Source of the DNA: Baffinella frigidus
Lineage: Eukaryota; Cryptophyceae; Cryptomonadales; Baffinellaceae
DNA: 26,000 bases
Assembly: GCA_026770585.1 (NCBI GenBank)
Contig: MU646304.1
Span: 1,203,138-1,229,137, forward strand
Reading direction: 5' to 3'
The position numbers were made by a program, and so were the translations under genes. The notes beneath the pieces were generated by a model that saw only the letters and a program-made list of their open reading frames with translations, made no database searches and was not told the origin of the DNA. Below are positions 661 to 25,400 of the stretch, in pieces (position 1 is the stretch's first letter; each line of letters begins with the position of its first letter).

Positions 661-3600
661 GTCAGCCCCCCTACACTCAAAACCACTCTCCTCACATCCT
701 CAGCGTTCCGCGGCCGGTGATACGCGCGGAGTGCACTTCCCGCTTCCCGCTCAGTCGCTCGCGCGGTCGCGGTCGGCTGATTCCGCTCCGTAACACCCAT
801 CATTTTGCGATTTTATGGGTATCCAATCAATATCATCTTGGGCTGGCAGAGGCGATGCTCTATCAGACGCATCTGCAGCACTCGCCCAAAACCCTAATCC
901 CTGAACCCTCCCCGCTCCCCTCTTTGGGTGGCAGAGGTGATGCGGTTTCTGATGAAATCGGACCCCGGTTCTTAATAAACACGGAACGGTTTCTAATGAA
1001 AACGGACCGGTGATGCGGTTCCAGGGTCCGTCTTGAGCAGATGTGAGGCTGTCCCTCACGGAGCTGCAACATGCATGGATCAAACTCGGCTCGATACGCG
1101 CGATGCCAGCGGTGTAACTGTGACCGTTCCGTAGGGTGCTACCGTATGCAATACCGTAGGTTGATACGGGATGCCGCAATTAGGTTGACGCTGCAATAGA
1201 TCTTCCAACGTTAAGTGCTGAATGCACTTCGCGCTTCCCTGTTGAGCAGATGTGATGGTCTACCATCCCGCGTCCCTCGAAGGATGGCAACTACACCCCC
1301 GAAACCCTGGACCCTAAACCCTAAACAGCATCTTGAAACACCCTAGGGTTGACGCTTTCTCTCGTGGTCTGGCAGATGTGATGGTCTACCTGTCGGAGTT
1401 ACAGCGCTCGCGCTCGGCCGATCGACTCGACCTCTCGAATCAGCGCTTCCGCGCCCTTCCCGTCTCGCTTCCGGAGTACTCCCACATCAAGTGAGCCCCC
1501 CCCCCGCCCCTTCCCAGTAGAAGAGGCTGTATTGGACGTAGAGGAGACTGTATAGGGCGACCCCTCTTGCCCCCCCCCCACAAGCGCCCTCCCTGACTCC
1601 TTCCCCGCCTACTCCCAAATTAAGTGCGACCCACAACCGACGCAGCAGGATTTTAGTGCTGGGGGACGACTTGATGCTGAAAGTCACAACGTGACGCTCG
1701 GTCTGGCTGCAGGGTTTTAGTACTGGTGGACAAACGGATGATCGACTTGCCCTCTCCATCAATTTAGGTCACACTTGATGTGAGAGGAGGCGGGACAGAG
1801 AGGTAACGCGTGTCCTGGCGGCAGGGTGCTGGTGCTGGCGGACAACATTATGACCGACTTACCCCAGAACCTCTGCGCTCTTGGCAAGTTGGAGTTCCTC
1901 GACGTTTGCCGCAACCGCCTTGTCTGCACCCCACCCCATGATTTAATTAGGAGTGGTGCAGTCTGCACCTCATCCCCCTCTGCACCCCACCCCCAGCTCC
2001 TGATTCAACGATGTCGCTACTTGATGACCGACCTACCCCCGATTCTCTGCGCTCTTGGCAAGTTGGAGTTCTTTGACGTCGGCCGCAACCGCCCTTGTCT
2101 GTTCCCCACCTTCTCCACTTCGCGTTCGCGTTCTCTGTTTTCTCGAGATGTGGTCCTGATTTGGAAGGTCCTGATGTTTTGCACCACCCTCGACGACTGC
2201 CGGAACCGCCTTGACTGCGCCCCACCCTACACTCTGAGATATACCCTGAAAGGTGACGGGTCGAAACAGGGACACAATCGCAGGCGATGCACCCCCCTCC
2301 TCCGATTCTCCCTCTCCCTTTCTCTATGTTTGGCGAGATGTGGCCCCAAAGTTTCGGATGGTCCTGATGTTTTGCACCACCCTCGACGCCTGCCGAAACC
2401 GCCTTGTCTGCATCCCACCCTTATAATTGCTCCAGCACCCCGTGTGCACCCCCACTCTTGGCACACACCGGGGGTTCCCGTGCACTTGATTAGACTCCAA
2501 ACTGATGCCCCTCGTAACTCAGAACCGCGCCCGGACCCTGAACCCTGAACCTTGATCTATGAACCCTCAACGCCACACCCTAAACCCTGAACCCTAGCCC
2601 CTAAACCCTGAACCCTAAACTCTAAACTTTAAACCCTGAACCCTAAACCCTAAACCCCGAACCCCAAAACGCTGAACCCCCAGGAGCTGCTCCCCGAAGG
2701 CTTCGGACTGCTGACGAGTCTCGAAGTTCTGCGCGCGGTCAACCCTACACCCTACACCCTACACCCTTTACCCTACACCCCACACCCTACACGCTGAACC
2801 CAGAACCCCACACCGTACACACTGAACTCTACACCCTCAACCCTGAACTCTCATCCCCCAACTCCCAACTACTAACTTCCAAACCCCAAACCCTACACGC
2901 CACAATCAAAAGCTTAAACACTAAACCCCCAACCCCCAACTCAATCCCCACACCCCACACCAGGACGACAACAAGCTCCCTCACCTCCCGCGGACGTTCT
3001 CGAAGCTCCCGCGACTCATCTCCTGCTCGCTGCGCCGCAACCTCCTCACCTGGCTCCCCACACTGGTCCGCACCCGCCAGAGAAAAAACAAGTCTCTTTG
3101 ATAGGGACACCATCAGAAGAGGGGCGTGGGGGGGGGGGGGGGGGGGAGAAAATCCCCCGAGGGACGCCCCCTTGGGCCGGGGTTTTAAAAAAAAACCCCC
3201 CCCCCCCCCCCCCCCCCCCCCATTCACCCCCCCCCCCCCCCTTTCCGTTTCATCGACTCACCCTCTCCCCCGGAGGAACCTTCCTTTCAAAACCCAATAC
3301 TACCAGTTTGCGCTCTGGGGATCGCCTCTCCTTCTCCTGATGAGTTGTTGGGTGCAAACCCAATACCTCGTCAAACCCGACACCTCGGGCGGATGGACTG
3401 CGAGGAGGATCTGGGAGTGAGTTGATGGACCGAGTGGGGGTTGTGGTGATGCCAGGTTGAATGATGAGGAGGTTGAATCGATGTAACGCGAGTGTCGTTT
3501 GCAGGTCGGGCGAATGGATTCGGTGGAGGAGCTGCTCGTAGAAGAAAACCCTCTCCGCTCTCCTCCCCAGGATGTTGTCGCGCAGGGCACTCGCCGCATC

Positions 3601-5674
3601 CTCCGGTCCCTTGCCGCAACCGCCCTGCCGTGCTGCTCATGCTAGCTCCGCCTCAGTCGGGTTGACTGATCGTTTTCACAACAAAAGTTGCCGAATTTGT
3701 ACCACACAACATATAAATCAACGTATGGTCAATTTGAGGAGACCAGATCGACTCGTAGAGGACACCCCTCTCCGCTCTCCCCCCCAGGATGTGGTCGCGC
3801 AGGGCTCCCGTCGCATCCTTCGGTCCCGCCCCTTTCCCCCTTTGGATCCAAATTGGAAAGCCCCAATGGACTGAGACAGGGGCGTGTGGACTCAGTGGAG
3901 GCTGTCCCAGTCTATCTGTCTCAGTACCAATCGTAACCCCATAAAAAAATTGAAACAGTTTGAATAGACTGGTGGTTGTAATTCCCACGTGTGACCTGGC
4001 GTGGCCTCGACAGATGTCTGGGGAACCTGGAGCCTTTCCCCCCTGTAGCTCTGTCTCACTCTGTTTTGGTTTGAGTTTGGTACGGAAATCGTTTGAATAG
4101 ACGGGGTTTGAAATTTCATTTGAAATTTTGTTAGGCGGGAATCGTTTGAATAGACGGGTTTTGAAATCTGGCGTGGCCTCGACAGGTATCTGGGGAACCT
4201 GGAGTACTCGGAACGGACCTGTTCCCTCGATCTCTCTGCGCTCAAGCTCGAATCGGTGCGTGTCTCCCGCGGTGTCAACGAAAAAAAACACCATTCAGAT
4301 ACATCTCAACACATTCACTATTCGGATACGATATTCACTATTCGGGAACACACGTTCACTATTCGGATGCTGCGGGCTGCCAGCGTGACTGTCGAGCTCT
4401 TCGCGGCAGAACACTGTTCAAAACATGCAACCTGGTACGGTATGATTAAAAAAAAAACGTCAAGACACTTACGCCGTCACTATCGTAAAACTGGCGCCGC
4501 AGGCCTCACAAATATTTATATGCAAAAAAGCTTCGTTCTAAATTATTTGTCCACCGGGGCGGGGACAGGTACCGCTGATGGTGTGCCGTCAGACGGCGCT
4601 GACAGAACTGAAGCTGTTCAAGAACGTGGTCTCGGCAGTTCCTGTCAAGCTCCAGCGTCTCACCAACCTCACCCGCCTGGTAAGCCCGCAAACCCTGTTT
4701 TCACCCATAGTGCCCATGCATTACCCTGGAAAATGTGCGCAAACCAACATGTTTCTACCCCCGACACTCACGCACACCCCTGCGTATCTGTCTTCATGCC
4801 GAAGGACATTGTGTGTCCCGCGTCGAAACGGTACACCGTGAGGATGAACGCCTACTTGGAGTTGAACTCCACTTGAACATGGAGGGCAAGTAACCGCGGG
4901 GAGGGTGGTGCACCCTCAACCCCAATCCCACCCCGCTACCCCAAACCCACAACCCTTCACCAGGTGCTATCAGACAACAAGCTGGAAGTGCTGCCAGACT
5001 TCCTGCACCGGTTCCCGCACCTGCAGGGGTTTCACGCCGACGACAATCTTCTCACGGTTCTCAAACAGACCCTGAACCCTACACCCTGAACCATAAACCC
5101 GAAACCCTAAACCCTAAACCCCCTAAACCCTCAACCATAAACCCTCAACCCTAAACCCTAAACGCTGAACCTCAAACCCTAAACCCTAAACCCTAAAACC
5201 GGAACCCTAAACCCTAAACCCTAAACCCTAAACACTAAACACTACACCCTAACCTCTAAAATCCACAATCTGAACCCCCAACGCTTCAATCCTCAACCGT
5301 ACATCCTAAAATTAAACCCCAAAACCTCAACTTCAAACCCCAACCCCTAAAACTCACACCTTTAACCCTCAACCCTGCACCCTTATTTCTGAAGCCTAAA
5401 CGTGACACCCTGAACCCTCATCCCCCATCCCTAACTCCCATCTCCAAACTCTATACCCTAAACACCACCACCGCCATCGGCGCAGAAATGCCCCGAGTCA
5501 GTATCGGCGCTGACGAACCTGATCGAGCTACGTCTCGCTGGGAATCAACTTGACGACCTGCCGCACGGTCTACACCCCACCACCCGCCCTCCAAAACCCT
5601 AACCCTGAATCCCAATCCTTGAAACGTAAACCGTGAACCCTCAACCCTCAACCCTCAACCTTCAATCCTTAACC

Positions 5675-5731
<57 letters not shown>

Positions 5732-8700
5732 TCAACCATCAATCCTCAATCCTCAACCCTAAACTCTAAACCCTAAACCCTGAACCCTGAACCCTGAACC
5801 CTAAACCCTAAACCCTAAACCCTAAACCCAAAACCCTAAACCCCAAATCCTGAACCCTAAATCCTGAGCCCAAATTATGGACCCTCACTCCTGAACTCCC
5901 AAACTCCCAAACCGAAAACAGGGCTGTCGCGTCTTTTGAACCTGCTGCTCCTGGACGTCTCTCGCAACAAGCTCACCACCCTTTCGCCAGGTCCTCCTCT
6001 ATCCAATCTCGAATCGCAAACTTGAATACTTTGCTAGCTCGTGGACTAGTGTAGAGTCTGGGGTTCTTTTCTATGAAGAAGGATGTCTTCCGGAACAAAC
6101 GCTCCTCCCTTTCGTCAGGTCCGCTTCAAAAAGGCTTGGGTTTTCATTTAGGTTTTGCTGAACTAATCGATTTTGAATTCCAAATTTGAACAGGAAGCTC
6201 GGCATCAATCGAATTGCACCCCAGGCCGGGATAATTGCATTACCCTAGTTGGACAAGCGCACCACCCTAGTTGGATTCTCAGCTCTGAAACAGCTGTCAC
6301 GTGCGAATTGTATGACCTACGGGTGGCCCTACGGTAGGAGGTGGCTAGCAAATTCTTGTGGGTGTGGCCTATTCGATTAATGACGAGCTTCCTGTTCAAA
6401 GCACCACCCTAGTTGCATTCTCAGCTCTGAAACAGCTGTCACGTCCCCTCCGGGGCTGCTTCTGCACAGGCAGGGCGGATTGCTAGACGTTTCTCGGAAA
6501 ACCCCCCGAACCCCTGCACTCTGATCTGAAGGAACCCCAACCCCTGCACTTTGAAATCCTTCGCGGCACGTCATATGCTCACTACCAGTATACTCACTAC
6601 CCCAAAATCGAACAGCGTTGCAGATCTCGCCCCTAACGCACCCCCCCCCATCCCGCAGCGTCCTTCAAGGCACTCAAAAAATGCGAAGTCCTCCGCCTCT
6701 CATCCAACGCCCTCCAGCGGATCCCATCCGAAATCGAGAGCATGTCCAAGCTCAGGGAGTTACATCTCGGTGGGAATCCGCTGATTGACATCCCGCCGGA
6801 GATCTGCACGCTGTCGCACCTCGGCATCCTCTCTCTCCAGGTTTGTCCCCCTTCTGTCCATGCCCGTGCTTCTCGATTTCTCTCTCGAGGTGTGCCCTTG
6901 TTTCGCACCACACCCCTTCGACCCGAATCACCCCTCGAGGTTTGCCCTTGCGCCCACCTCTGCCCTTACACCTCTCCCTGCGCCACCCCCCCACCGTGCC
7001 ACTCGACTCAGCTCTCGAGATTTGGCACTCGACGCAGCTCTCGAGGGGTGGCGTTGCGCCTGCCCGTCTCCCCCAACTCACCCCCCCCCTTTCCCATGAC
7101 TTTACAGACGCGCGCACAGCAGTTGCTTTACACTCAACTGAGACTCTCTTTCTGGCACGCTGCGATCAGAGCAGGGCGGGGAATGTTCCACAAAAATAAC
7201 TCTTCGTGTTCCACCAAAACCACTCTTCGTGTTCCACAGAAACCACTCATCGTGTTCCACCAAAACCACTCTTCGTGTTCCACCAAAATTACTCTTCGTG
7301 TTCCACCAAATTTTACTCTTCGTGCCACCAAAATCACTCTTCGTGTTCAAACCCATGGCCTGCAAACATAAATAAACCAGGCGGCGACGCGGCTGGGTTG
7401 GCTACAGGCTCCTAGAGCCTCGACGTCTCGTCCCACCTCTCTCCCGCTGGCGTACAGCTTGTCGTGTTTGTCAATTTATGAACCTCGTGTTTCCCCCGGG
7501 TGGGCAGGATACGCCGAATTTGTTTGCACCTCCGCCGGAGGTGACGACGCAAGGCTTGGAAGCTGTCCTCTTCTACCTCCGACGCGTCTTTGATGTCAGT
7601 CCCTCTCCTCCAGCAGAGGAGACTTTTATTGAACTTGCGACGTCAGTCCATGAACTTAAGGCGGCCATAGCGGGCTCCTTCAGCCAGACGGGCTGAGAGT
7701 GGATGCTGTGCTCTTCTACCTACGCCGAGTCTTCGACGTCTGTCCCTCTCTTCCCACACGGAAGGGCCTGTTCCAAACCGAGATTTAGTCTTTGTGTAGT
7801 GACTGTCATTGCCTGTGCAGCCATTCCATCTTTTTTTAGCATAGGCACGAGGTTGGAATACCCCATCTTAGTACACGTTTTGGAAGCAGTGCTCGTCTGC
7901 CTCCGACAAACCTACGACGTCTGTCCCTCTCTCCTCCCGCCCTCCCCCCGCAGCTGTTTTGATTGTGTTTGACACCCCCAGATTTGGACCTGATGGGCGC
8001 CGGAAATATGCAACTTGTACTAGCAACGTGTAGCGATATCGAATTGTTTTACAAACCCGCCAGCATTAATTGATCAAAGTACGGATCATCGGAGAGCGAC
8101 TCTGTCTTTCGAAGCTAATGCAGTGACTCATGCACCTGACCATACCCGCACAATGTTCCGGAGGTGTCCCGGCATCGTTGTGCCACACAGCGGACTAGGA
8201 AGGGATTTTGAATAACCTCTGCACGACGAGACCTTGGACCCTAGGGTAGGCAACCCGTAGGGATATAGGGGGATTCCTACGGATAAGGTAACCGGCAAAG
8301 CCTTGATGCTGACGATCTTTTTTTTTCTTCGTAGCCCGCTGTGTGGTTCACTGTCGGATCCTCAGTCACGAGTTATCTACGATTCACTTCCCACCGCCGG
8401 GCACCGCATGCACATGTTGAAACTTTCAACGCCGAATCCAAAAAATCTGAACCGGAAACGGTTCTGATGTCTGAATCGAAAACGCCGAATCGGCAAAGTG
8501 GAAGACAAAACGCTGACGCGAAACCATGTCTCACGTGGGCAGGCGCAACGCACTGGTGTCTTGGATCTCGTCTGGTTGGGACTCAAGTCTGCGCCCCCCC
8601 CGACCCTCCCCCCTTCAGAAACAGATCCAAATGACGTGTTGTGAGCCCAAGTGGAATCTCTTCAGCAACAAATCCCGGAACACGACTTCAGTGACAGAAA

Positions 8701-11700
8701 CTAATGGTCTTTCCTGCCCCCGCCACCGTTTCATGCAGACAGGTTTGAATGCCAGAGGAAGGAGATAGCAGCCTCAGCAGCTGCGATGGGGTGCGTGATA
8801 CTACTTTCATCTATCAGGATCTATCTCAGATTTGTCTTGGCGATGAAGCTGTTTTGTACGTGAATGGCTGACAATACTGGGGTTTACCCGCATCGTCCCT
8901 GTGCTGTGCATGCACCTATACATCAACACCGAGAAGCTTTTGCACCTCACATTTCTCAACCTCTCATCACCGCCACACACCCTCGAAACGGCTGAATCAA
9001 AAGGAAATTTTGAAAACGCTGAATCACAACCTGCACCTATCGACCCGGTACAGGCATCTATGAATCAACCACGAAAAGCTATCTCTCCTCACAGCACTGA
9101 ACCTCTCGGGCAACGAATCGACATTCCATTCTGGAATTTCACGCTGGAGCATCGAGTGTTGGACCTGAACCTCTCGACGCTGTCCCGTGCAGGCATCTCT
9201 ACATCAACAACGAGAAACTGTCGCACCTCACATCGCTCAACCTCTCTGGCAACGACTTCGTGGACCTTCCGCACCAGATCCCGCACCTCACGATGCTCAA
9301 GACCATCACCTTCAACGATAACAAGCTCACGGTCCGCCACCTCCCGTACTGACTAGTGTTGTTTATTTTCATATTTAATTTATTAACGTTTGTCGGGAAC
9401 CTCTTGGGATCCAGGTGCGGTGTACGGCGTACGCTCCACTGGGCCTTTCATAGTCCAAACCTGTTTGCTAATTCCACTGAATTTGAAGACTGATGGTTCG
9501 ATTAAGTGTTTTCTTGCACTTGATGTATCGAGGCAGTGTTTCCTATGCAGGTACCCCCCCCTGGGCACGGGGCTGAAGATGCTGTCGTTCCATGGGAACC
9601 CTGTCTAATAAGCATGTGAACCGTGCCAGTCCCGTCCAAATCGCTCATGATACGTGTTTCATGTGCAGGTTCTTCCCCCGGGGCTGGGGGTGATCACGGG
9701 ACTGACAATGCTCTCGTTCCGCGGGAACCCTGTCGAGTCGCCCCCCGCCGAGATCGTCGACCGAGGTGCGTCAAGGGGTCAGGGTTTAGGGCGGCACTAG
9801 CTTCACCAAAGCACATAACCACCCCTAACATACACATAGGGTGCCCCAACCCCCCGTTAGGGTTCGGGGTTTCGGGTTTAAGGATGACGGATTCGGGATC
9901 AGGTTTAGGGTTCTCACTGTGTTGTCATTTCGTGTTGTCGCGTCGAGTCTCTTCACGCCGAGATCGTCGACCGAGTTGCATGTGCAACCCCTGGCAGGCA
10001 GGTAGGACCCTATACCCTACATCGTGCTCGCCACGTGGCCACTCAATCCCTCTTTAGGGTTTCGGGCTCGTCCACAACCTCCCTTGGATCTTGCGCACGC
10101 TTCTTATGGCACCTAAGAAGCGTATCAATCAGACACCCCTATACCAGCAAACACGTGATTCCAATTGAATAGGTTTCCATGACATCAGGCACGGAGGCGA
10201 TTCTGCGGTACCTCCGCCGCGTGTGGAACGCAAACGACACCCAGTTTCTCGACCTCTCGTCTCAGGTAAACTCTACACCTCAAATCCTACACCTGAAACA
10301 TGAACCCCAACCCTAAACCCTAAACCCTAAACCCTAATACCTCATGCCTACACCCAAAACCTAAACCCTGAACCCTGAACCCTGAACCATAACCAATACA
10401 CCCTAAATCCTGAACCCTACACCCTAAACAATGAATCCTAAACCCGAAACCCTCAACCAGGGGATCCAAACCCTCCACGTCTCCATCTGTCTTCTCTCCA
10501 ACATCTCGCGCCTCACGCTGGTTTACCCTAAACCCTAAACCCTAAACCCTAAACCCTAAACCTTGAACCGTAAACCCTAAATCCTGAACCCTAAACGCCA
10601 AATCCTAAACCCTAAACCATAAACTCTGTATCAATAGGGTTTCACTGAACGCTGCCCCCTGAACGCTGAATATTGAACCCTGAGGATCACAACTCTTGGA
10701 GCTATTGATGCTCTTTTCATTCCCAACACCCTAATCCAGGATGACAACAAGTGTGAGACGCTTCCAGAGGAGATGGGGCAGCTGCAGAGGCTGGTAAACC
10801 CTACACCCCAAACCCCAAACCCTGAACCCTAACCCTAACACAACTCCCTACCCCCAATCTTAAACTTTCAAGCCCAAACCCTCAAACTTAAACCCTAAAC
10901 CCTAAATCCTATACCCTAAACCCTATACCCTAGACTCTAAACCCTAAACCCTTAACCCTGAACCTTGAACCCTAATCCCTAAACCCTAAACCCCAAACCC
11001 TCAACCCTCAACCCTCGACCCTCAACCCTAAACCCCCACGCCTCAACCCTCAACCCTGAACACCAATCCCCAAACCCTGCACCCTGAACTCTAAACCTCA
11101 AGTCTTTAACCCCAATCGTTCAACCGTAACCACCAGGAGTTCCTCTCGCTTCGGAACAACAAGCTGACCTCGCTTCCCGGGAGCCTAGGGCTTCTCAACG
11201 TCCAGGTGATTCTCTCACTCCTCTAGCTCTGTCTCTGTCTTTTCAAGCGAAACTGTTTGGTGGTCATGCGGTCTTCCCTGGTCCAAAATTGACGGGAGTC
11301 TTACTAGATGTCCAAGTTCTGCCCCCCATCCAAACCGTACACCCCCTCAACCCTCTACACACTTAAGCACGTAATGGAAGCGTGGGGATGCGTGCCTCGT
11401 GGAACAGCCCCGCCGGCAGGCTCGTGAACGCCCGCGTGACCGGTCACGCGGACGCCGAAGCCAACTGTCCGAGGTGGCTGCCTTGCGTGTTTCTAGCACC
11501 CCGTTGCTGTAAGTTGATGGTGCATCCAGCACGCTCGTTTGCACCTGGCGATTCTCAGCGGTCGAAGGCTTCACGCCCCCCACACTCACTTGATCGCAAC
11601 AATCTTCAAACGTCTTGACTTGCTCCTGAACAACATCCCGACGCATCTCGCACCCCTCAGCTCTAGCCCCACAATGCCCCAGCTCTAACCACCCACATGG

Positions 11701-14700
11701 TATAGCCCGAACCCACCATCACCTCTTATATCTCGCGGAGCTGTTCCTGGACGACAAACCGCAACAAAAACGACAACCCGCAATACACACGTCTCTCATT
11801 TTCACGATTTTCATCGGCCGAAGAGTTCACGCCCCCCACGCTGAATGACTCTCAACACTCTTCCGATGGCAGGAGTTACTCCTGGATGACAACCCGACCC
11901 TGCGCTACCTCCCGCCCGAGATGGCCACCATGACGACCCTCGTCACTCTCGGCCATTCGGGGTAAACCCAAAACCCCTACAGTCGCCACCATCGACCCCC
12001 AACCTTGAGCCTAACACCTTGCACCCTGCACCCTACACACTGCACCCTCAACCCTCAACCCTTGAACCCTGAACCCTGGACTCGCGATGGCCTCCATGAC
12101 CACGCTCGTGACGCTCGGCCATTTGGGGTACACCCTAGACCCTACACGCCTAGACCCCAAAACTACCCGCATCTAACGGTTGTTTCATGCATTGTGAAAC
12201 AATACACCGAATGGAGTGCTCAACTTCAGATTATCTGGACAAAAAACAGGCATGCGGTGGTTGCGGGCTTTCCCTCTCAAACCCCAGCCGGGCTTTCCCT
12301 GTCAAACCCCAGACCTCAAAACCATCACCTCCAAACCCAAAACCCCAAACCCCACAGCCAAACCCCAAACCCCCAAAACGCAGGTGCTTCCTCGAGTCTC
12401 CCGGGATGGAGATAGTCGGGAAGGGGGTGCATGCTGTCATGACCTACCTCAGCGCGTACCCCCCCTCCCTCACCCTTCCTACCCAACCACCCACCCTACC
12501 CACCCACCCACCCAAACTACCCACCCATGCACCCACCCCTCCATCCACCCACCCACCCATACACTCACACTGCCCCCCCTACCCCCACCCACCCACCCCC
12601 CCACCCACGTGATCGAGCATGCGGCCCGATCAAGGCCCGAGGCAGCCTGCGTGTGACAGTTCATCTTCCCTTCAACACTTCATCCGCCCAAAGTGGTGTG
12701 CACGGACGTGCTCGGCTGCATTCCGCTCTGAACCACCCATCATTTCGCGATTTTGTGGGTATCCTCTCATTTTTTTTTTGGCAACGCGCAGGTGCCTGGA
12801 CTCGGTGCGGTCGAAGAAGGTGCTGCTGCAGGCGAGCGGCATGACTCAGTTCGCCATGCAGTTCACCGCCCGCCAGGTGCTGTCATCCCTGCCATTTGCA
12901 AATCCTGTGAATGCATTCCGAAATACGGACGTCCTTGCTTTCTTGCACACGACTGCGCTGGGTTTCGATGAGGAGGGTGTGTGACGTTGGCGTTGCGGAT
13001 AGTGTGCGTGCGTGCGCGCGCGTGCTCGCGTCTTCAGCTCGCGTCTTCAGCATTCCTGCACGGCGGTTGGACGCCACTGACAACCCTCGGCGACTATGAA
13101 CCACCTGGGTACTAAGGACCTTGACTTGAAAACCCTTCACACCAAAACCCCTAAATTATATGTCCTGCACCCTGAACCCTACAACCTACAACCTATACAA
13201 CACACCATGCACCCTGAACCCTGAACCCTGAACCCTGAACCCTGGACCCTGAACGCTGAACCCTGGGCAGACGTGCATGCATGTGGACATCTCGAACAAC
13301 TTTCTGGAGGAGCTCCAAGAGGGCATCTTCACGTGCGTTCCCACTCTGATTGCCCCCGCCCACTTGCCACCGGACCCGACCATGTATCACTTATTTCAAC
13401 CACATACCACCTCACCCAACCACCCATCACTCCCTTCAACCACTTACCCCTCTCGGAATGCCCCGCCCACGTGCCATGTCCCCAATTCACTCATCATGCT
13501 TCCAACAACTTGTCACTTCCCCCAACCACTCATCACCTCCCCCATCCACCTATCATTTAACCCAACCACGTATTTACGGTGCGTACTCCTCATCTTGGTG
13601 TCGCCAGAGCCTGCAATGGTCCCAGGGCCCCACAGTTGACTGTATCAGGTCGTGCCATCGGGTTGTACCAAAGACCGAGTTTTCATTGTATGGAGCCCTA
13701 TTACTCATTGCCAAAGCCCTGTTACTCATTGTAACCCCTTGGTTCCGCAGGTTTCTGAACCTGACCCACCTGAACGTCTCATACAAGAGTTGAGGGTCCT
13801 GCACCCTACACCCCACACCCAAACGCTGAATACTCACCACTAAACCCATTCACTCTCCGTGGTTCGTCCGCAGGTTCCTGAACCTAACCCACCCTCAACC
13901 CTCAACCCAAAACTTGAATCCCTCAACCCTGAACCCCACACCCCAAACCCCTGACCTCTGAACACTAACACCCCCCCCCCCGTGGTTCCGCAGGTTTTTG
14001 AACCTAACGCACCTGGACGTCTCATACAACCGCCTCGCGAAAGTCCCGATCCTGGTCGGCAACTTACGCGAACTGCTCCACTTTGCCGCGGACGGCAACA
14101 TGCTTACCCAGCTCCCGCTCTCTCTCGCGTACATGGATAAGCTTCAGGTCGAGAATCCTTCATCCCCCAATCCCAAACCGCCCACAATCCAAAACCGCAT
14201 TGTCCCACACTCCAAAACCGCATCATCTCTTTAGTAATTTTCGTAAGGGTTGGCCTTGTTCCTCACATAATTCCTAGGCGGTGTTCTCAATCCGTGTTCA
14301 CGTCCTTACACGCCCACTCTTTTGCGTACATGGATAAGCTCCAGGTTCGTTGACCCCCCCTCCTCGCTGATTTCTGATGGGGTTTCGTAAATAATCAATG
14401 CGTGAATGATCCGTAAGACCCTACGGTAGGACATCCAGGGAGATGGGTTTGTTCCTACGTAACTGACACCAAGTTGATACCTTTGTTCCTACGTAACTGA
14501 CACCAAGTTGACACCAAGTTGATACCCAACAGCCCCCCCTCTCTCTCGTACGCATGGAGAAGCTGCAGGTGCGTGTACCCTCCCCCATCACTCACTTGAA
14601 ACACCCAATCTCAATTCACTAGTGTGGCTTGCCTCTCAATTCACTAGTGTGGCTTGTCTCAATTCAATCTCAATTCACTAGTGTGGCTTGCCCAAGAAAA

Positions 14701-17700
14701 CACCCTCCCCAAGCCTGTCTCACTTTTATCATGTGGGATGTTGCGCAATCATGTCGTGCTTCTGGGGTGCATCGCCGGAGCTGGGTAAGCATGTTGCCGT
14801 CCGCGGCAAAGTGGAGCAGTTCGCGTAAGTTGCCGACCAGGATCGGGACTTTCGCGAGGCGGTTGTATGAGACGTCCAGGTGCGTTAGGTTCAAAAACTT
14901 CTGGGGTGCATCGCCGCTGACATATTGCACCGTCTCGCTCCTCGTGCATGGTGCTGAAAATCTGTGGGAAATGGTTTGCAGCACATCAGCGCGGCGGACA
15001 ACGCGATCTCCGACATCCCGCCAGACTACGCGATGCTCTCCTCCCTCCAAACCCTCCACCTCCCCGGCAACCTCATCTCCGAGCCCACGGGGGAGCTGCA
15101 CCATGTCACGTGCGTACCCCTCTTTGATCAAATTTGTTGGATAACCATAACATTTCCAGGTACCTGGTGTTATAGAGGGGAATCCATCCTTGCCTGAATG
15201 GGTGTGACAGAGTGCGCGTGAATGACCTCACATTGGGTGGAAATGCAGAGGCTGGAAGTGAGCGGGTGGGCACGACCCCGGCATGAAATGGGTTTGCAAT
15301 ACGCTGAAGTTTGCGTGGGAGTGCAGGACGCTGACGAACATCAGCCTGGCGCGGAACCGCATCTCGTCCCTCCCCTTCGAGTGGGGGTACCTCACCAGAC
15401 CACCAACCCTCAACCCTGAATTACAAACCCTACACCCTACACCCTACACCCTTGACCCTAAACCCCAAACCCTAAACCTAAACCCCAAACCTCAAACCCG
15501 AAACTCGAAACCCGGAACCCGGAACCCGAAACCCGAAACCCTAAAACCTAAACCCTCAATCAGGTACCTGACCAACGTCACGGAGCTGGACCTGACGGGC
15601 AACCACCTCACCGATCCGCCTTCTGAGGTATCATCCGCGGGTCTCTTATACCACTCTGCCTGCATGCCTGCCTGTCTGTCGCTGCCGGTTTCAGAGAGTG
15701 TCTGCAACAGCTGCATCTCCGAAGCCGGCCTTCAAAACGACAGGCCCGCGTCGGGACGGATGGACCCGCCTCGGGTCTGGGACAATCGAGTCGGGAATCT
15801 CTCCCAGAGGGATAACGGAGGTGTCATAACCAGGTGGGGTAACAAAGGTGTGATATGCAGGTTCGGCGGATCGGGGTGTCGCACATGCTGCGGTACCTCC
15901 GACAGGTGATGAACAGCTTCCTCAACAACTCCCTCGACTTCGCGGGGCTCAACCTCGCAGAGGCCCCGCTCGTCTTCGTCCGCAACCGCAATATCATCGA
16001 GATGTCTGACCCCAACCTCAGAGATCCAACCTCATCAGAGATCCAACGCCACCAGACACCACATAGCAGCCACCGGAGGTTTTAAGGATACAGTCCATCT
16101 AAACGATTTGTATTAGAATATTATCCATTTGCATTGGATTATAACTGCATTTCCCCAAAATATCCGGGGGAAAAGGAACTCCTCTGCTGCTAAGTAGATG
16201 TCAGTATTCAGAGCCCGAGAACCCTGCAGTGTCGTTCAAACTCCTCTTCGTCGGCAACAGAAACATCATCGAGATGTCCGTCCTCCCTCAACTATAACCC
16301 TGCACACGGATCCCTGCACCCTATTCTCAAGTCAATGCTCATACTCGCACCGGGTGAGAACCTCGAGAGATTTTTGTTTGGAATTATGTTCAATGTTTCA
16401 GGGTTTTGACTTTTCGATTCCCGAGCAGGTACCTGGACAACAACCGACTCTCTGTGCTGCCCCCCGAGGTTGCCGCCCCTCCAACCCTCTTCTTCTTCTT
16501 CTTCTTCTTCTTCTTCTTCTGCTTCTTTTTCTTCTTCTTCTTCTTCTTCTTCTTCTTCTTCTTCTTCGTTTTATTCTCCGTCTGCTTCTTCTTTTGCTTC
16601 CTCATCTTCTTCCGCTTTCTCGTTTTCTTCTTCCTTCTTCCGATTCCACGTTTTCGTCTTCGTCTTTTTATTCTCCGTCTTCTTCTTCTTCTTTATTACG
16701 CCCAAGCCTAGAGATGTGTGATCCAAAAACAGCCGCCTCTCAGTGCTCTCCACCGAGGTTCAAAACCCTGAAACCTAAAACCCCAACCCCCAAACCTGAC
16801 ACAGATCGGGCAGCTCCCCCAGATGAAGATCCTCTCCCTCTCGAACAACAAGCTGACCACCCTCCCATGCGAGCTCGGACAATGCACATCGCTCACGCAT
16901 CTGCATCTGGGGGGAAACAAGCTGCGGTCGCCGCCCGTGGACGTTCTTGACGCTGGCGTCGACGGTCTGCCTCCCAGTCAAACACCCTATTCCAAACACC
17001 CTATGCGGACAATGTTGGAATGGTAAATGAATGATAGATGGACGGCTGCGGTCGCCGCGCGTGGATGCGCTGGATGCGGGCGTCGACGGTGCAGACTCTC
17101 ACTCCCCAATAGTCCTCTACCGAAAAAGCCTCCAATCCCCAATTGTCCTTCACCGAGAAGGCGTCGACGGCGGGGATCCCCACGCCAGGCTCTTGGGCAG
17201 GGTATTCCAGGCCTGTTATTGGAGCCATTGGGCGGTGTTGGAGCCGTTTCTTCTCAGCATTGATTTTTGAATACCGTTTTTCTTTTTAAAAACACAATCA
17301 CTTTTGAATACCCCCCTTGCCAGCCCTGCGTGGCTCACCCAGCCCCTTTAGTTAAATGCAGAAACATATTCCAGTTAAAACACTATTGTGTGCTATACGT
17401 GGGGTGTAATTTGCTCGTGTACGCTCTACACAGCTTTACCTTAGCACTCGACTGAGACAGAGCTTGGCACAACGCAAGGCAGTCACCTCGGACAGTTGGC
17501 TTCGGCGTCCGCAGTCAGCACATCACCACCCTGTCACGAACCCCGTCTCTTCATCACACACAGATTCAATCCGACTCGGGTGCCGAATCGGGTGAGCTTT
17601 TGGCCTGACCTGCGAGCCCGACTCTGGTCTGAATTGATCAAAGCACCCAATTCGTGAACCGAATCCTGAACCCCAAACCGCAACCCCTTAACCGTCAACC

Positions 17701-20700
17701 CCAAACCCATCACCTCAAGGGATCCTGCAGTACCTGCGGTGCTTCTCACCGGCGATGCTCAGCGGGTTCCTCGGTCCTCTTGGAATTTGAGCCATTTCCA
17801 CAAAACCAGGATTTTGACAAAACGGCTCATCGGTTCCAATTACGTGGAGGGGAATCTCCCCAGTTTGCCTCCAGGGATCCTGCACTACATGCGATGTTTC
17901 TCAGTAAGCTGCGACAAATGTCGCCTGCTGCATGGCTTGCAGGGATCCTCCACACAGCGATTTTCATTGCAGACAGAGAGATGTCTATCGGCTGATGAAA
18001 TCTGTGACCATCCCCAGGGATCTTGCACTACCTGAGGTGCTGCCTGCCGACGGTGTCACAGTCAAGCCGTAGACTAACCCGCACTGGGTGTGATCATGGA
18101 CGTTAATCAAACCTTTCGTCTCCAGGGATCTTGCACTACCTGCGATGTTTTTCGGCCGCGATGCTCAGCGGGTTCCTCGACCTCTCTGACGCCCGCCACA
18201 CCGACGTCCCCAACGAGGTCTCCTCCCTGCCTTCCTGCTCGCCCCCGCCGCCGTTCCTCCCGATGTGTCTTTCGATTTTGACCAAAACAGCGTCGTGGCG
18301 AGGCAGGCGCCCCCCATCTCGAATCTCATGGACCAGTCTACATCTCGAATCTCGAATCTAACAGACCACTCCGCACATAGTGTCGCACTGCAGACGGCCC
18401 TGGGGCACGTATGATACGCATTCTGACGTGAGCAACACAGGATCGAAACACGCAGTATGTTCCTGACCCTGACGTCAGCGACGCACGATGCGCATGATAC
18501 GTGCCCCGAAGTGTGTTGCTGCCGTCAGGGCGCATTCGTGGTCGCTGAATATCACCCCCGAAACCCCTGAACCCAAACCCCAAACCACACCCGGCAGGTG
18601 CTGCTTGTCTCCAACCTCACGTTCCTCTCGCTGCGCAACAACACCGTATCCGATTGCTAGACCAAACCTCAACCCCCCAACCCCGCCAGGTTCTTCTCGC
18701 CTCGAACATAACCTTTTTCTCCCTGCCTTCCTCTCCATGTGGACGCGGAGGCGAAAACCCAAGTCTCGAACCCCGAAGTCTTCCATTGCAGGTGCTGCTG
18801 GTCTCGAACCTCACGTTCCTCTCGCTGCGCAACAACATCGTGTCTGAATGTTCCGCGGGGATCAACGTCCTGCAAGCGGGCCTCACGCACCTCGATCTCT
18901 CGGGCAACAAACTCGCCGAGGTATTAACACCCAACATCCTAAACCATAAACCTGAATCCCGAACCCCCAAGTCCCAAACCATGAAACCGAATCCCGAATC
19001 CCTAAGCTCCAAACCATAAACCCGAATCCCGAAACTCTAAGACCCAAACCATAAATTCTAATCCCGTGTCCCTAAACCCCAAACTCCGAGCGTTCAACTT
19101 CAACCCTCGAACCTTAAACCTGCAGCCCAAAACCCTAAACCACCAATCTCAAAACCACATCTCAAACCCCAAACCCCAAACCCCAAACCCCAAACCCAAG
19201 CAGGAGCCATCACCGCTCAAAGACCAGACGAACCTGACGATCCTCGCGCTGGACCGCATTCCCCTTCACAAACTCTCTTTGCAGCATTTCGGAACATTTA
19301 TGCTCCACGTATCGTATGCTATGTTAGAGTGTTGCTAGTTTTATGTTGGACAGGGGTTCTACGTTTTTGCTATGTTGGGCATGGGTTGTATGCCACCATA
19401 GCAACACTGACCCTAACATGCCGCACACATACATAAAAAGTGCAACCGAATGAGTAATGTCCCCCCCCCCCTTTCCAAACCGCAGGTGCCATCAACGCTC
19501 GGAGATCTCACGAACCTCACCTTCCTCGCACTGGACCGCAACCCTCTCCCGAAGCTCTCGCGAAGCCTACGGCTGCTCACGAAGCTCACGACGATGCGCA
19601 TCGAGTGCGTCGTCATGCTCTCGCCACCCCCGGAGCTCCAGGTGATTTCATCGCCCCCGGAGCTCCAGGTGAGTCTATTGGTACCCAATACACTTTGTAT
19701 GGGTACCGGTACCCAATACACATGAAGCGCACTATTGCTGACATTTGTCATTATTATTACTATCATTATTGTAATATATATATATATATTTGGCTTATTA
19801 TTGTAATATATATATATATATATATTTGGCCAAATATATATATATATATATTTGGCTCTCGCCGACTCCGGAACTCCAGGTCATGTGATTATCTCCTGCA
19901 GTGCCGTTGATTGTTATTTTTCTTACATTTGTTTTCATCCCGATTTTACCCTGCGTGTTGGCATGTTCAAACCACCTGGATCTCCAGGTGTTATCAGGGG
20001 TACCCACTAACCTGCATGAGGTGCATTGCTGCTGCTACCATTTGTTCCGGGATCTGTGTATGTTTCGAGCAGCAGGGTATCCTCATTCACAGCTTCTGGG
20101 TGTGAGATGCTGGTCTAAAAAAATCTCAAATTTTGCCACCCCAAAATCTCAAATTTTCCCACCGTTGATCTGATCTCAAATTATGCCACCTCGTTCGCAG
20201 GTTCTCAAGGAGCCGCATTACATTCTCAAGTTCCTGGAACAGGTCCACTCCCGCAATCTGTCTGTCTTTCTTTGCGAGAATACGCTAGCCACACAGCGGA
20301 CTTTGCAGCGATTTTGAATATCTGCGAAGCGATACGGCATACGACCCTACGGTAGGCAACCCGTAGGGGAATGGGGGTGTTCCTACTGATAAGGTAACGA
20401 AACTTCGGCCCGATTCGGGCCAAAAATCCCTTCGTAGCACGGTGCGTCGTTAGCAAACACATAAATGCACTGTGCCATACAGCGGGCTTCGAAGGGATTT
20501 CCGGCCCATATCGACCCACCTTTCCGTTATCCGTGGGAACCCCCCCTATGTTCCGACGGATTGCCTACCGGAGGGTCCTACTTGCAGATCGACACACGTC
20601 TGCAAATGCTCACTAGAGCATTTGTGCCTAATTGCACACCCAAAACGTATGCGGCTAATTGCACACCCAAAACGCGTGCAGTTGCACGTGGGGGACGAGA

Positions 20701-20842: not shown

Positions 20843-21310
20843 GCATATATAAATACATGTTTATATATCAATATAACTATATATATATAAGGAAGGAACG
20901 AGACGGGGCGCATGGTTCTCGACGACTGCGCGCTGCACGAGCTGCCTGAAGAGATGTGTTTATGTCCCTCTCGCTATATATATCTCTCTCTCGCTCTCTC
21001 GCTCTCTCGCTTTCTCTCTCTCCCTCTCTCTCTCTCTCGCTTTCTCTCTCTCTCGCTCTCTCTCGCTCTCTCTCGCTCGCGCTCTCTCGCTCTCTCTCGT
21101 GCGCTCTATGTCTCGCTCTCTCTTTCGCACTCTACATCTCTTTCTCGCTCTCTCTATCTCTATAACTGTCTTGCTCGTGCACTGTCTCTTGTTCTCTTGT
21201 TCTCTCTCTCTCTCGCGCGCACCGCCAACGGGCTTCGCAGTCTCTATCGATCGCTTCTCTCTCGCACACCCCCCATATCTCCTCTTTCAGTCACTCCATC
21301 TTGCTCTCTA

Positions 21311-21372
<62 letters not shown>

Positions 21373-22254
21373 TCATCACTCACTCTCGATATCTGGCTCA
21401 CCGCCAACACGTGCCCATCATATATGCAGTGTCTATACTCACCTGCGGATCGCGCAGGGGGGGTGTAGCTAGGGTCAGTAGGGTGTGGACGAGAGAGTGT
21501 AGCTATGGTCAGTAGGGTGTGGACGAGGTCCGCATGCCCTCCCCTTGCAGAGGCGATATGTCAGGCCTGATGCCGTCCGCTGTCCCCAAGCTGGTCACCG
21601 CGTGATAAACATCTGGTAGGGTGCTGGTGTGGTCAGCAGGGTATAGCATTCACGTGTTGCCCCATCTTAGTGCCCGAGGCCATGCAATTGAAACTGCCTT
21701 TGATGCTATATTAACAGTGATTTCTCTCAGATTTTGCTATCTTAGCTTCGACGTACTTAAAATAGCACACATTCACCCCATAATAGCAAAAAACACGCTT
21801 TGAATCGCATGGCCTCGGCTATGAATCTGCAGGCGATGGCGATGCGGCATCTGGAATATCTATAGAGCATATAGGGTGCTGGTAGGGACAGCAGGGTGCA
21901 GGATTTCTTCGCGTTCCTGAATAGATTCAATTTCAGCCTAAATACTTTCAGGGATTCAAAATAGCTGGGTGTGTACCATTTATCTTTTAGATGGACAGTT
22001 TGCGAAATTAAATCTGTTCAGGTCCGGGACAAGATTCACATTTTTTCTAATGTGCAGGTGATGGCGATGCGGCATCTGGAGTATCTATCGATCAGACAGA
22101 ACCACATCTCGTCTCTCCCGATCGGCATCGGCGATCTCACGGATCTCACGGACTTGTTGGTCGACGACAATGACGTCACGTACATCTCCCCGGTACCGAC
22201 CCCAACCATTTATATACCACATAGGTACCCCTCCAACCCTACATATCCCGTATA

Positions 22255-22333
<79 letters not shown>

Positions 22334-22347
22334 ATAATTAAAAAAAA

Positions 22348-22443
<96 letters not shown>

Positions 22444-25400
22444 ATATATGGAATCGGCAATCTGACAGACCTCACGAACCTCCTCACTGACGACAAGGAC
22501 GTCACATACATCTCCCCGGAACCCATCCAACCATGTATGGCCATACCTCCACGGAATATGCGCGGGTAAGTTTTTTGTGTGTGATGCCATCAGGATCGGC
22601 GACCAAGTGACGCCACCAGCATCACGCGCCCCCAAACCTTCTTCTTCTTCGTTATCAACATATTAAAATCTCTGCAAACAGGTGCTAGGCCTATTGGGGA
22701 GTGATCAACTTACTAACTACGCTGTTGGCCCTCGACGGGGACCAAAACCCTAACCCCGAAACACAACCCCCAAAACCAGGTGATCTTGCAGCTGACACGT
22801 CTGCGAATCCTCGTAGGGTTCGTAGGTCTTCTCGATTAGGGGTTACTATAAGCCCGAAACGCTACACCGAAAACCAGGTGATCTGGCAGCTTACGCGAGG
22901 ATTTACTCTCTCGATATAGAGAGAGTGTATGTACTCGAGAGTAGTAAATATACTCGTTCGATATATTGAGAGGATATACATAGATGCTGCGGACACCAGC
23001 ATCCCCCAAACATAGATACTGCGTACACCAGCATTCCCCAAATACTGCAAACACCAGCATCCCCCCAAAAGAACCCCTAACCCCTACACCAGGTGATCTG
23101 GCAGGTGACGTGGTTGCGAATCCTCTCTCGCCTCTGCCATCGGGATCTCTCGTATGATGCTATCGGGTTCGGCGACCAACGGACGACACCAGCACCCCCC
23201 ACACTCTAACCCCTAACCCCTACACCAGCATCGCGCGCCCCAAAATCCTAACCCCGAAACGCTACACCGAAAACCAGGTGATCTGGCAGCTCACGCGGCT
23301 GCGAATCCTCTCGCTTCGGAACAATCCTGCACGCAAGCTCCCGCCTGAGGTCCCCTATGTCCCTACGGGTTGCCTACCGTAGGGTCCTAGGTCTGATTGC
23401 TTAGGGGTTATCCGCCTTGCCAAGAATTATTAAATTGACATATTTATTTGATATATGGGTTGCGTCATGGTGTGTAGTTTGAAATGACGTGGGGTTTTGT
23501 CAAAGCAATAGAGAACTCGGATGGCTCACCACCATCCATTTGAGAAGACGCTGCAAATCCTCTCTCTTTGGAACTACCCTGCGCGCAAGCTCTCACCTGA
23601 GGTCCGCCATGCCTATTCTTAAGTTGACATCTTGAGTTCACGTTCCAAAGTTGACATCGTGAGTTGATTTATGATTTTTGTCTTAGTGGGTGGTGGGGAG
23701 GGAATGCAATCGAGAACTCGGGGGCTGCGAATCCTCTCTCGTCGGTACTAGCCTGTGCGAAAGCCTGAGGTCCGCCATCCCAATAATTATTTCCTTGCCA
23801 ATAATTATTAAGTTGACAACTTAAGTTGTCATATGGGTTTCATCTTGGAGGCAAAACCTCGCTTCTCTCTCAGTCTGTATCATTCAGCCACGGTTGTGAA
23901 GCAATGCAATCGAGAACTCGGGGAGGCTCGCCACCACCCACTCGAGAAGACGCGGCTGCGAATTTTCTCGCTTCGGAACGTTGGCTCTGGTTCAATTCGT
24001 TGTGTGGCCCACACAGGCTGGTACTAAATCGTGATAAAACAAACAGGTTGGGCTGTTGAACCCGGACGTGTTCAAGGAGCTTCCGCTGGATGGGTGCTCC
24101 AGGCTGCTCTCGCCCCCTCCGGAACTCGTTCTTCTGGGCGTCGAGCGCATCCTCCCCTACCTCCGCAGGTAGAGTGTTTTATGCATCTGTTGGCCACTGA
24201 AAATACTGGCTAAAAAATGGTAATTGTGTACCAGAACCGTCAACGGTTGACGTTTTTTGTTAGTCATGCGGTCAACTTCTCTATGCACACCGAAGCTGCT
24301 CTCGCCCCCCCCGGAGCTGGTCGTGCTGGGTGTCCCCTAACTCCGCACTTACCTAATTTCCTCGCCTTCGTTCCCCCCCCATCATTTCATTCTCCGATTT
24401 TTCTACCCTACCACTACTCAGTTTTCGTCTCTTGTCTAGGCGTGGGCCCCTAGAACTTGTTGTGGGATGCCCGAAACCAAACCATGAGGGTCGCACGAAC
24501 AGGTTGTGGGATGCGCGGCGGGGCCAGGTGTTGCATAGCGTCATGTACAACTATAAGTAGTCAAGAGCCAAGCAAATTTCGAGTAGCCAGTGGACCTAAA
24601 CACGCAATGTTTATGCAGGGTGTGGGATGCGCGGCAGAGCCAGGTGCTACATCTCATCGACTGGGACTTCTCGACCCTCCAGCCTGAGCGCACTCTCGAC
24701 AATGTCAGCCCCCGTTCTCTCCCCTGGTCAGAAAACCGGCACCAGGGTGTTACCTGAGCTGGGGGCGTTTTATGCGTTGACCGTCCAGGGGCGGGCCCGC
24801 AACATGTGACCGCATGATCAACTTTGCGCTGGGCCTCATAACTTACAGGTGGATTCGTTGACGGACCTGGACCTTTCAGAGAACCTGGGTCAACGTTATA
24901 TCGAGTGGCATACGCGGTACTAGACACGGCTCCTTTTTCTGTAGGAATTCCGGGGATGGGCCAACAATTTTTACCCCGGAATGGACTTTTGCACCGTACC
25001 TTTTGATGATCTCCAAGGCAAGGTTCTGCAGATGGGCGGTACCTGAACCTATGTGATGAGCCTCATAACCTGCAGGTGGACAGGTGCACGGACCCGGACC
25101 TCTCGGAGAACCTGGGTCATCGGTGTATCTAGTGGCATACGCGGCACTAGACACGGCTTCTTTCCCGGTTGGAATCCCGGTGATGGGCCCCAAAAGCACA
25201 TTTCGGAACATAACAGAATCTGTCACGATCTTCAGCCTCCCCACGCGGAAGGTAAGGGTGGATATTAGATATATTTTATTTATGGCATCAAAACAAGGCT
25301 AACATGAGTGTATTCGCCCACCGATTATGTTATGTTCCGATTAAATTTGACCGCGGGAATAAAAAAAATCAGGTGGACACGTTGACGGACCTGGACCTTT

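Follow-up and report, generated by a model that had tools for sequence, protein, structure and literature searches.

Many predicted introns of a leucine-rich repeat (LRR) protein gene in the cryptophyte Baffinella frigidus contain degenerate CCCTAAA-type repeats that resemble telomeric DNA, and some consist of little else. The gene lies in a 26,000-nucleotide stretch of contig MU646304.1 (positions 1,203,138 to 1,229,137, assembly GCA_026770585.1), hereafter the window. The repeats form distinct tracts, their removal leaves a stop-free LRR reading frame, homologous proteins lack several of the introns, and in unrelated genes the strand of the tracts goes with the strand of the gene. The reading preferred here, with a probability of roughly 0.6, is that introns with a CCCTAAA-type body were gained by insertion of telomere-type DNA into exons and were kept mainly where the C-rich strand is the sense strand. 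Telomere-type introns had been noticed in a sequence-only reading of the window; that observation is confirmed, and it extends outside the window.

Predicted telomere-type introns in the LRR gene

The modelled part of the gene has 36 exons (E01-E12 and E14-E37; 1376-23349, plus strand), recognized by LRR motifs, reading frame and Pfam matches. Once spliced, the model reads through 1136 residues with no stop codon. It falls into two phased runs (E01-E12 and E14-E37), and Pfam LRR_8 matches both (E = 7.2e-27 and 8.5e-46). Exon E13 is out of frame and was omitted, and the runs are joined at an unphased junction, E12-E14. All 34 phased junctions are GT-AG, and removal of the introns keeps the frame, so that reading across the repeats does restore the LRRs in phase, as first proposed. 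The exon limits were set manually to GT and AG, with LRR continuity, splice dinucleotides and phase as guides; what counts as evidence is therefore that phase and LRR register are preserved, and not the GT-AG ends themselves. The flanking stretches L063, L065 and L067 also read as LRR-like on the same strand (L063 by Pfam), and the gene or neighbouring LRR genes therefore extend past both ends of the window.

Tracts were detected by wraparound alignment to CCCTAAA on both strands of the whole window, with score thresholds that vary by count (30, 36, 50, 60 and 80). The plus strand carries 25 C-rich tracts with scores of 30-443, and the window has one TTTAGGG tract; in three simulations of the window under a first-order Markov model no score exceeded 27 (same scoring without the drop-off rule). 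The tracts are degenerate, with about 80% identity to CCCTAAA. A strict three-repeat pattern has 26 matches in the window, all on the plus strand, as against none in 100 shuffles. Eleven of these matches lie inside a nearly perfect CCCTAAA array, found by alignment, at the right window edge beyond the modelled exons (25857-26000, plus strand), which was omitted from the strand counts, the substitution counts and the shared-word test.

A C-rich tract is present in 17 of the 35 introns and a G-rich tract in one, and 17 have no tract (E13 dropped). Nine introns, all on the plus strand like the gene, are about half to nearly all repeat: five at least 93%, one 88% and three about half. Those at 2738-2963 (E03-E04, 98%), 5568-5921 (E09-E10, 99%), 10266-10460 (E16-E17, 98%) and 10794-11136 (E18-E19, 99%) have a tract that starts 1-3 nucleotides inside the donor and stops 1-2 nucleotides short of the acceptor; in the first of them the distances are 3 and 2 nucleotides. 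The fifth highly repetitive intron is 5057-5485 (E08-E09, 93%). The intron at 15387-15563 (E26-E27, 88%) has GTACCTSACC at its start, repeated at the start of the next exon. The remaining three are 10521-10739 (E17-E18, 47%, with the repeat in its 5' half), 11962-12383 (E20-E21, 54%) and 18921-19485 (E32-E33, 48%); near 19204 the last of these holds a degraded copy of the exon that follows. The earlier statement that the repeat ends at or near splice sites holds for both sites of four introns. Of the at least eight introns that the same reading took to be mostly repeat, 10521-10739 and 18921-19485 are only about half repeat.

Eight further introns carry a smaller tract or tract group, and in six of these it lies within 20 nucleotides of the acceptor. 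Tracts on the plus strand stand at the acceptor ends of E02-E03 (2535-2679), E07-E08 (4912-4961), E22-E23 (13130-13264), E29-E30 (a short one, 16763-16796) and E36-E37 (23197-23275). Intron E23-E24 has two (13798-13847 and 13891-13973; together 13798-13973) between copies of the start of the next exon, and in E30-E31 (17662-17708) and E31-E32 (18557-18586) a short tract lies ahead of such a copy. The sole G-rich-sense tract of the window (TTTAGGG-type, 9857-9912) is in intron E15-E16 (9766-10188), and it is the one exception to the original claim that the C-rich strand is the sense strand throughout.

Other repeated sequence is also found in these introns. Several partial copies of an adjacent exon edge together with its splice site occur at 13750-14000, 14130-14580, 17717-18150, 18598-18830 and 22742-23349; by eye, and with the real exon included, the start of E31 is present about five times and that of E32 three times. 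The introns seem to enlarge through repeated copying of exon-intron junctions. An inverted part-copy of exon E24 lies within the next intron (14770-14890, minus strand, with minus-strand LRR matches at 14888 and 14819). Long TTC, CT-rich and TATGTA arrays are present at 16488-16693, 20983-21161 and 22251-22440. Rfam gave no match at gathering scores.

Tract strand and gene strand

The 382-Mb genome (1364 contigs) has 53,120 matches to exact (CCCTAAA)3 with overlaps counted, divided almost evenly between the strands (27,288 and 25,832), as compared with 14 and 13 for the reversed-pattern control in the same genome. Exons of known strand were supplied by a kinesin search that matched 21 contigs, of which 13 were examined. 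Between the kinesin exons, three minus-strand genes have 18 G-rich and no C-rich tracts on the plus strand, and six plus-strand genes have 22 C-rich and one G-rich, so that the sense strand is the C-rich one in 40 of 41 inter-exon tracts; in a tenth gene, of two exons, no tract lies there. When all tracts in 11 kinesin stretches are taken, 50 are C-rich sense as against one (stretches L091 and L095 have none).

The sequence-only reading had asked for a genome-wide count of C-rich and G-rich repeats in introns relative to gene strand. With the window, the LRR flanks and a minus-strand protein kinase added to the kinesins, the sampled genes give 102 C-rich sense tracts and 7 G-rich ones, of which the kinesin and LRR families contribute 105 of the 109. 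The kinase lies in stretch L066, 10-20 kb upstream (PF00069, 4.3e-34). The bias has the same direction at each of the 13 gene loci that hold tracts, namely 11 kinesin loci, the LRR gene and the kinase (two-sided sign test, about 0.0002 by hand arithmetic). The strand bias that had been reported for one gene is therefore found in independent genes on both strands, and it tracks the strand of the gene. The strand of L063, L065 and L067 was taken from an ab initio coding score and LRR-like translations; the same score chose the kinesin strand in 11 of the 13 kinesin stretches and was wrong in L091 and L093. A myosin search gave four matches only.

Some stretches with arrays were left out. L069 lacks a gene strand, and L073 and L074 (G000:C3:500001-520000) were kept out of every count because their strand was judged only by coiled-coil-like translations of the minus strand. 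The latter two have 13 TTTAGGG tracts on the plus strand and no C-rich ones, an arrangement that would fit the strand rule.

Polarity of a chromosome arm or subtelomere is ruled out as the cause of the bias, since the minus-strand kinase and the three minus-strand kinesins carry their tracts on the opposite strand. Local copying of one insertion also finds no support, as the longest word shared among the window's tracts is 32 and the maximum for shuffled tracts is 34.

In several genes the repeats interrupt sequence that codes for a known domain. The kinesin motor of stretch L087 has a 132-nucleotide intron that is CCCTGAA-type repeat almost throughout, and the protein spliced across it reads through, with a Pfam kinesin motor match of 1.9e-40. 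AAGGT stands at both ends of this intron, as if a target had been duplicated. The paralogue L094, compared by eye, is uninterrupted at this site and lacks two L087 introns in all. In L088 the repeats lie between stretches that we take to be conserved in kinesins, and in L066 a tract ends in AAACC-AG immediately ahead of YRAPELLLG, presumably a kinase motif. An assembly artefact, or a decayed pseudogene with repeat filler, might be suspected, given that many scaffold stretches read N and that repeats are difficult to assemble. Such an origin is barely credible in view of the 1136 stop-free residues, the agreement of tract orientation with gene strand on different contigs, and the kinesin and kinase domains that run on across the repeats.

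Probable intron gain and splice signals

Protein searches found homologues that are 63-66% (P0001-P0003), 30% (P0005) and 56% (P0006) identical to the LRR protein in alignment. P0001-P0003 and P0005 align without gaps across introns E15-E16, E16-E17, E17-E18 and E18-E19, and P0006 does so across E07-E08 and E08-E09. P0001 and P0002 also span E14-E15, but with only three window residues aligned on its upstream side. The homologues thus lack seven introns of the window, four of which are among the nine tract introns (E08-E09, missing in P0006, and E16-E17, E17-E18 and E18-E19, missing in P0001, P0002, P0003 and P0005); these are empty sites at the protein level. The introns at E07-E08, missing in P0006, and at E15-E16, missing in the other four proteins, are the ones with the acceptor-end tract at 4912-4961 and the G-rich tract. 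The simplest reading, by parsimony with the distant homologue, is that the missing introns were gained in this lineage, and the earlier suggestion that introns were created from telomere-type DNA is strengthened by the four gap-free cases. A scan with P0001 as the query found no relative. A protein search with the exons between about 13994 and 15920 found no homologue, and so the tract intron at 15387 has no empty-site comparison.

The introns could instead be old, with telomere-type repeats that later expanded in them or replaced their contents, and with losses in the homologues. Eight introns have only a smaller tract alongside ordinary sequence, and copies of adjacent exon edges point to growth by other routes as well, both of which would suit this explanation. 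It is nevertheless unlikely, because four tract introns lie within uninterrupted homologue frames in two parts of the gene, the distant homologue is also without four introns, and two introns of L087, one made almost wholly of repeat, are missing from the kinesin paralogue L094 as compared by eye.

Under insertion into exons, telomere-type DNA would enter at double-strand breaks, either through telomerase or through repair that copies telomere-type DNA, and at first in either orientation. The insert would become the intron body, with GT and AG arising where it meets the exons, in many cases in the form G|GTAAACCC ... AAACCAG|G. In an insert whose sense strand is G-rich, an AG and a GT would recur at intervals of about seven to ten bases. 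Such an insert would undergo splicing in many positions and be eliminated; one with the C-rich strand as sense has few internal splice signals and would survive. Over 13.0 kb of tracts, AG and GT number 166 and 51 on the sense strand and 1239 and 1823 on the antisense strand. The poverty of one strand and the richness of the other in these dinucleotides may act as the filter that produces the bias. The same process may operate across the lineage as an intron factory, with thousands of introns derived from arrays, made by telomerase or copied from telomeres, that landed in exons, and with survival decided by a simple strand rule, AG and GT being almost absent from the C-rich strand and abundant on the G-rich one. 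This wider proposal is quite possible, although a little short of an even chance.

The edges of the tracts show further regularities. AG directly follows a tract in 33 of 99 cases and directly precedes it in 9, and GT is at the left edge in 21 and at the right edge in 4. The sites near tract ends in the window, L063-L067 and L083-L089 were taken as candidates, not all of which are proven splice sites. The unit position ahead of AG is most often the second C (AAACC|AG, 28 of 53 candidate acceptors), and that after GT is most often the first A (GT|AAACCC, 18 of 48 candidate donors). A C ahead of AG would permit three registers, yet AAACC|AG is the one found in those 28. GTAAAC makes a good donor, and this may account for the preference for the first A. 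The exon junction reads G|G at 8 of 9 tract introns and at 14 of 25 others.

The repeats might instead have spread as intron-like units at the RNA level, in which case their sense orientation would need no further cause; a C-rich telomeric intron or transcript could, for example, be reverse-spliced into mRNA and then copied back into DNA. The strand bias by gene, the preferred edges and the excess of G|G junctions would all be expected from such spread. It is distinctly unlikely, since the shared words within the gene do not have the look of recent copies of one intron, tract lengths and variants differ widely, and splicing could also choose the edges.

CCCUAAA-type RNA might also be a splicing signal here, pyrimidine-rich and with a CUAAAC-like branch site, in which case selection would draw repeats of any origin to acceptors. 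Tracts do adjoin acceptors even in otherwise ordinary introns, and a third of them are followed directly by AG. This explanation is very unlikely, given that 17 of 35 introns have no tract, that 14 of the 16 phased ones among these end in GCAG and not CCAG, and that the substitutions inside the tracts show no pattern peculiar to genes. A-to-G changes at the three A positions of the unit number 66, 8 and 9 in the tracts, so that changes which make AG are avoided. AG avoidance was rejected as a footprint of selection because the L069 arrays, where no gene is called, are similar; L069 is an imperfect control, as a gene there may have been missed. Selection for the CCCUAAA form in the transcript, the other possibility raised at the outset, is thus not shown. 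Target site duplication, considered as a general signature of insertion, finds no support in the window.

Several observations weigh against gain by insertion of telomere-type DNA. The tract introns are predicted spliceosomal introns, and the case for their excision comes from reading frame and homology. The direction of change rests on few protein homologues, of which P0005 may be a paralogue. Introns E07-E08, E14-E15 and E15-E16 are not mainly repeat and are missing in homologues too; since two introns with little or no C-rich repeat (9332-9668 and 9766-10188) are among the missing ones, intron gain is wider than the repeats. Either other sources may make introns here, or tract introns may decay with age. 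Seven of the 109 sampled tracts are G-rich sense, three of them clustered in L065. The AAACC|AG preference is not explained by random insertion alone, which leaves room for a route through RNA. The L069 arrays give A-to-G counts of 62, 16 and 9, much the same pattern as in the tracts of genes. Of the nine tract introns in the window, one clearly has an in-register duplication of the target, and the observed mean is attained in 41 of 500 re-pairings. Finally, the species' own telomere was not found at contig ends: the 12 readable of 18 have no uniform terminal TTTAGGG array, and L097 and L109 end in degenerate repeat.

Viral contigs with the repeat pattern were of no help: all 54 such stretches were given a rough count, and the nine that were examined hold short CCCTGAA- or CCCTCAA-type arrays, some as inverted pairs. 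In the IMG/VR contigs L049, L014 and L038 the inverted pairs are short TTCAGGG / CCTGAA arrays.

Comparison with known systems

The origin of new spliceosomal introns has long been debated, and few mechanisms have proven cases. If the preferred reading is true, telomere-type DNA is a new source of introns; under the wider proposal of an intron factory, the maintenance of chromosome ends would have come to supply gene structure. Should telomere-type arrays become introns, genes would be shaped directly by the repair of breaks in chromosome interiors. Intron birth could then be tested on a large scale in this genome, which has repeat matches by the tens of thousands. The sequence-only reading had held the systematic use of telomere repeats as whole introns to be no standard observation; in keeping with this, no earlier report of introns made of telomere repeats was found among the matches listed in the open-licence literature.

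Telo boxes, as described in PMC3022908, are AAACCCTA motifs in plant genomes that also occur in introns. They are single, lie mainly in 5' regions and first introns, and act in promoters. The text searched contains none of the words 'strand', 'orientation' or 'splic'. The motif is identical here, but it forms long arrays along the gene and is not a single regulatory motif. In Cryptococcus, according to PMC2395259, repeat growth creates new introns in one gene, and the repeated unit already held an intron. In B. frigidus the telomere-type repeat itself is the intron body, and several unrelated genes have it.

Introner elements, which appear in PMC11782384, also add introns. They are mobile introns that are usable in the sense orientation, carry their splice sites and cause massive intron gain. 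An introner family consists of near-identical copies and has features of transposons. The tracts here differ in being simple repeats. Within the LRR gene they are not copied from each other: no near-identical sequence recurs from intron to intron, and shared words are no longer than in shuffled tracts.

The closest likeness is to the short interstitial telomeric sequences of primates, rodents and horse. The excerpts of PMC7215372 place these at DNA breaks, with empty orthologous sites, and telomerase is proposed to take part. The same excerpts report no human array within an exon, expect stops in both orientations and leave an effect on splicing for testing; the introns of B. frigidus bear on this question of what becomes of an array that lands in an exon. 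Here too, tandem telomere-type repeats sit at internal sites away from chromosome ends, and homologous sites are empty, in this case at the protein level. Interstitial telomeric sequences are expected in either orientation relative to genes, whereas the sampled tracts divide 102 to 7. In contrast to the arrays described in PMC7215372, as far as these excerpts go, those of B. frigidus make up whole predicted introns in coding regions and track the strand of the gene.

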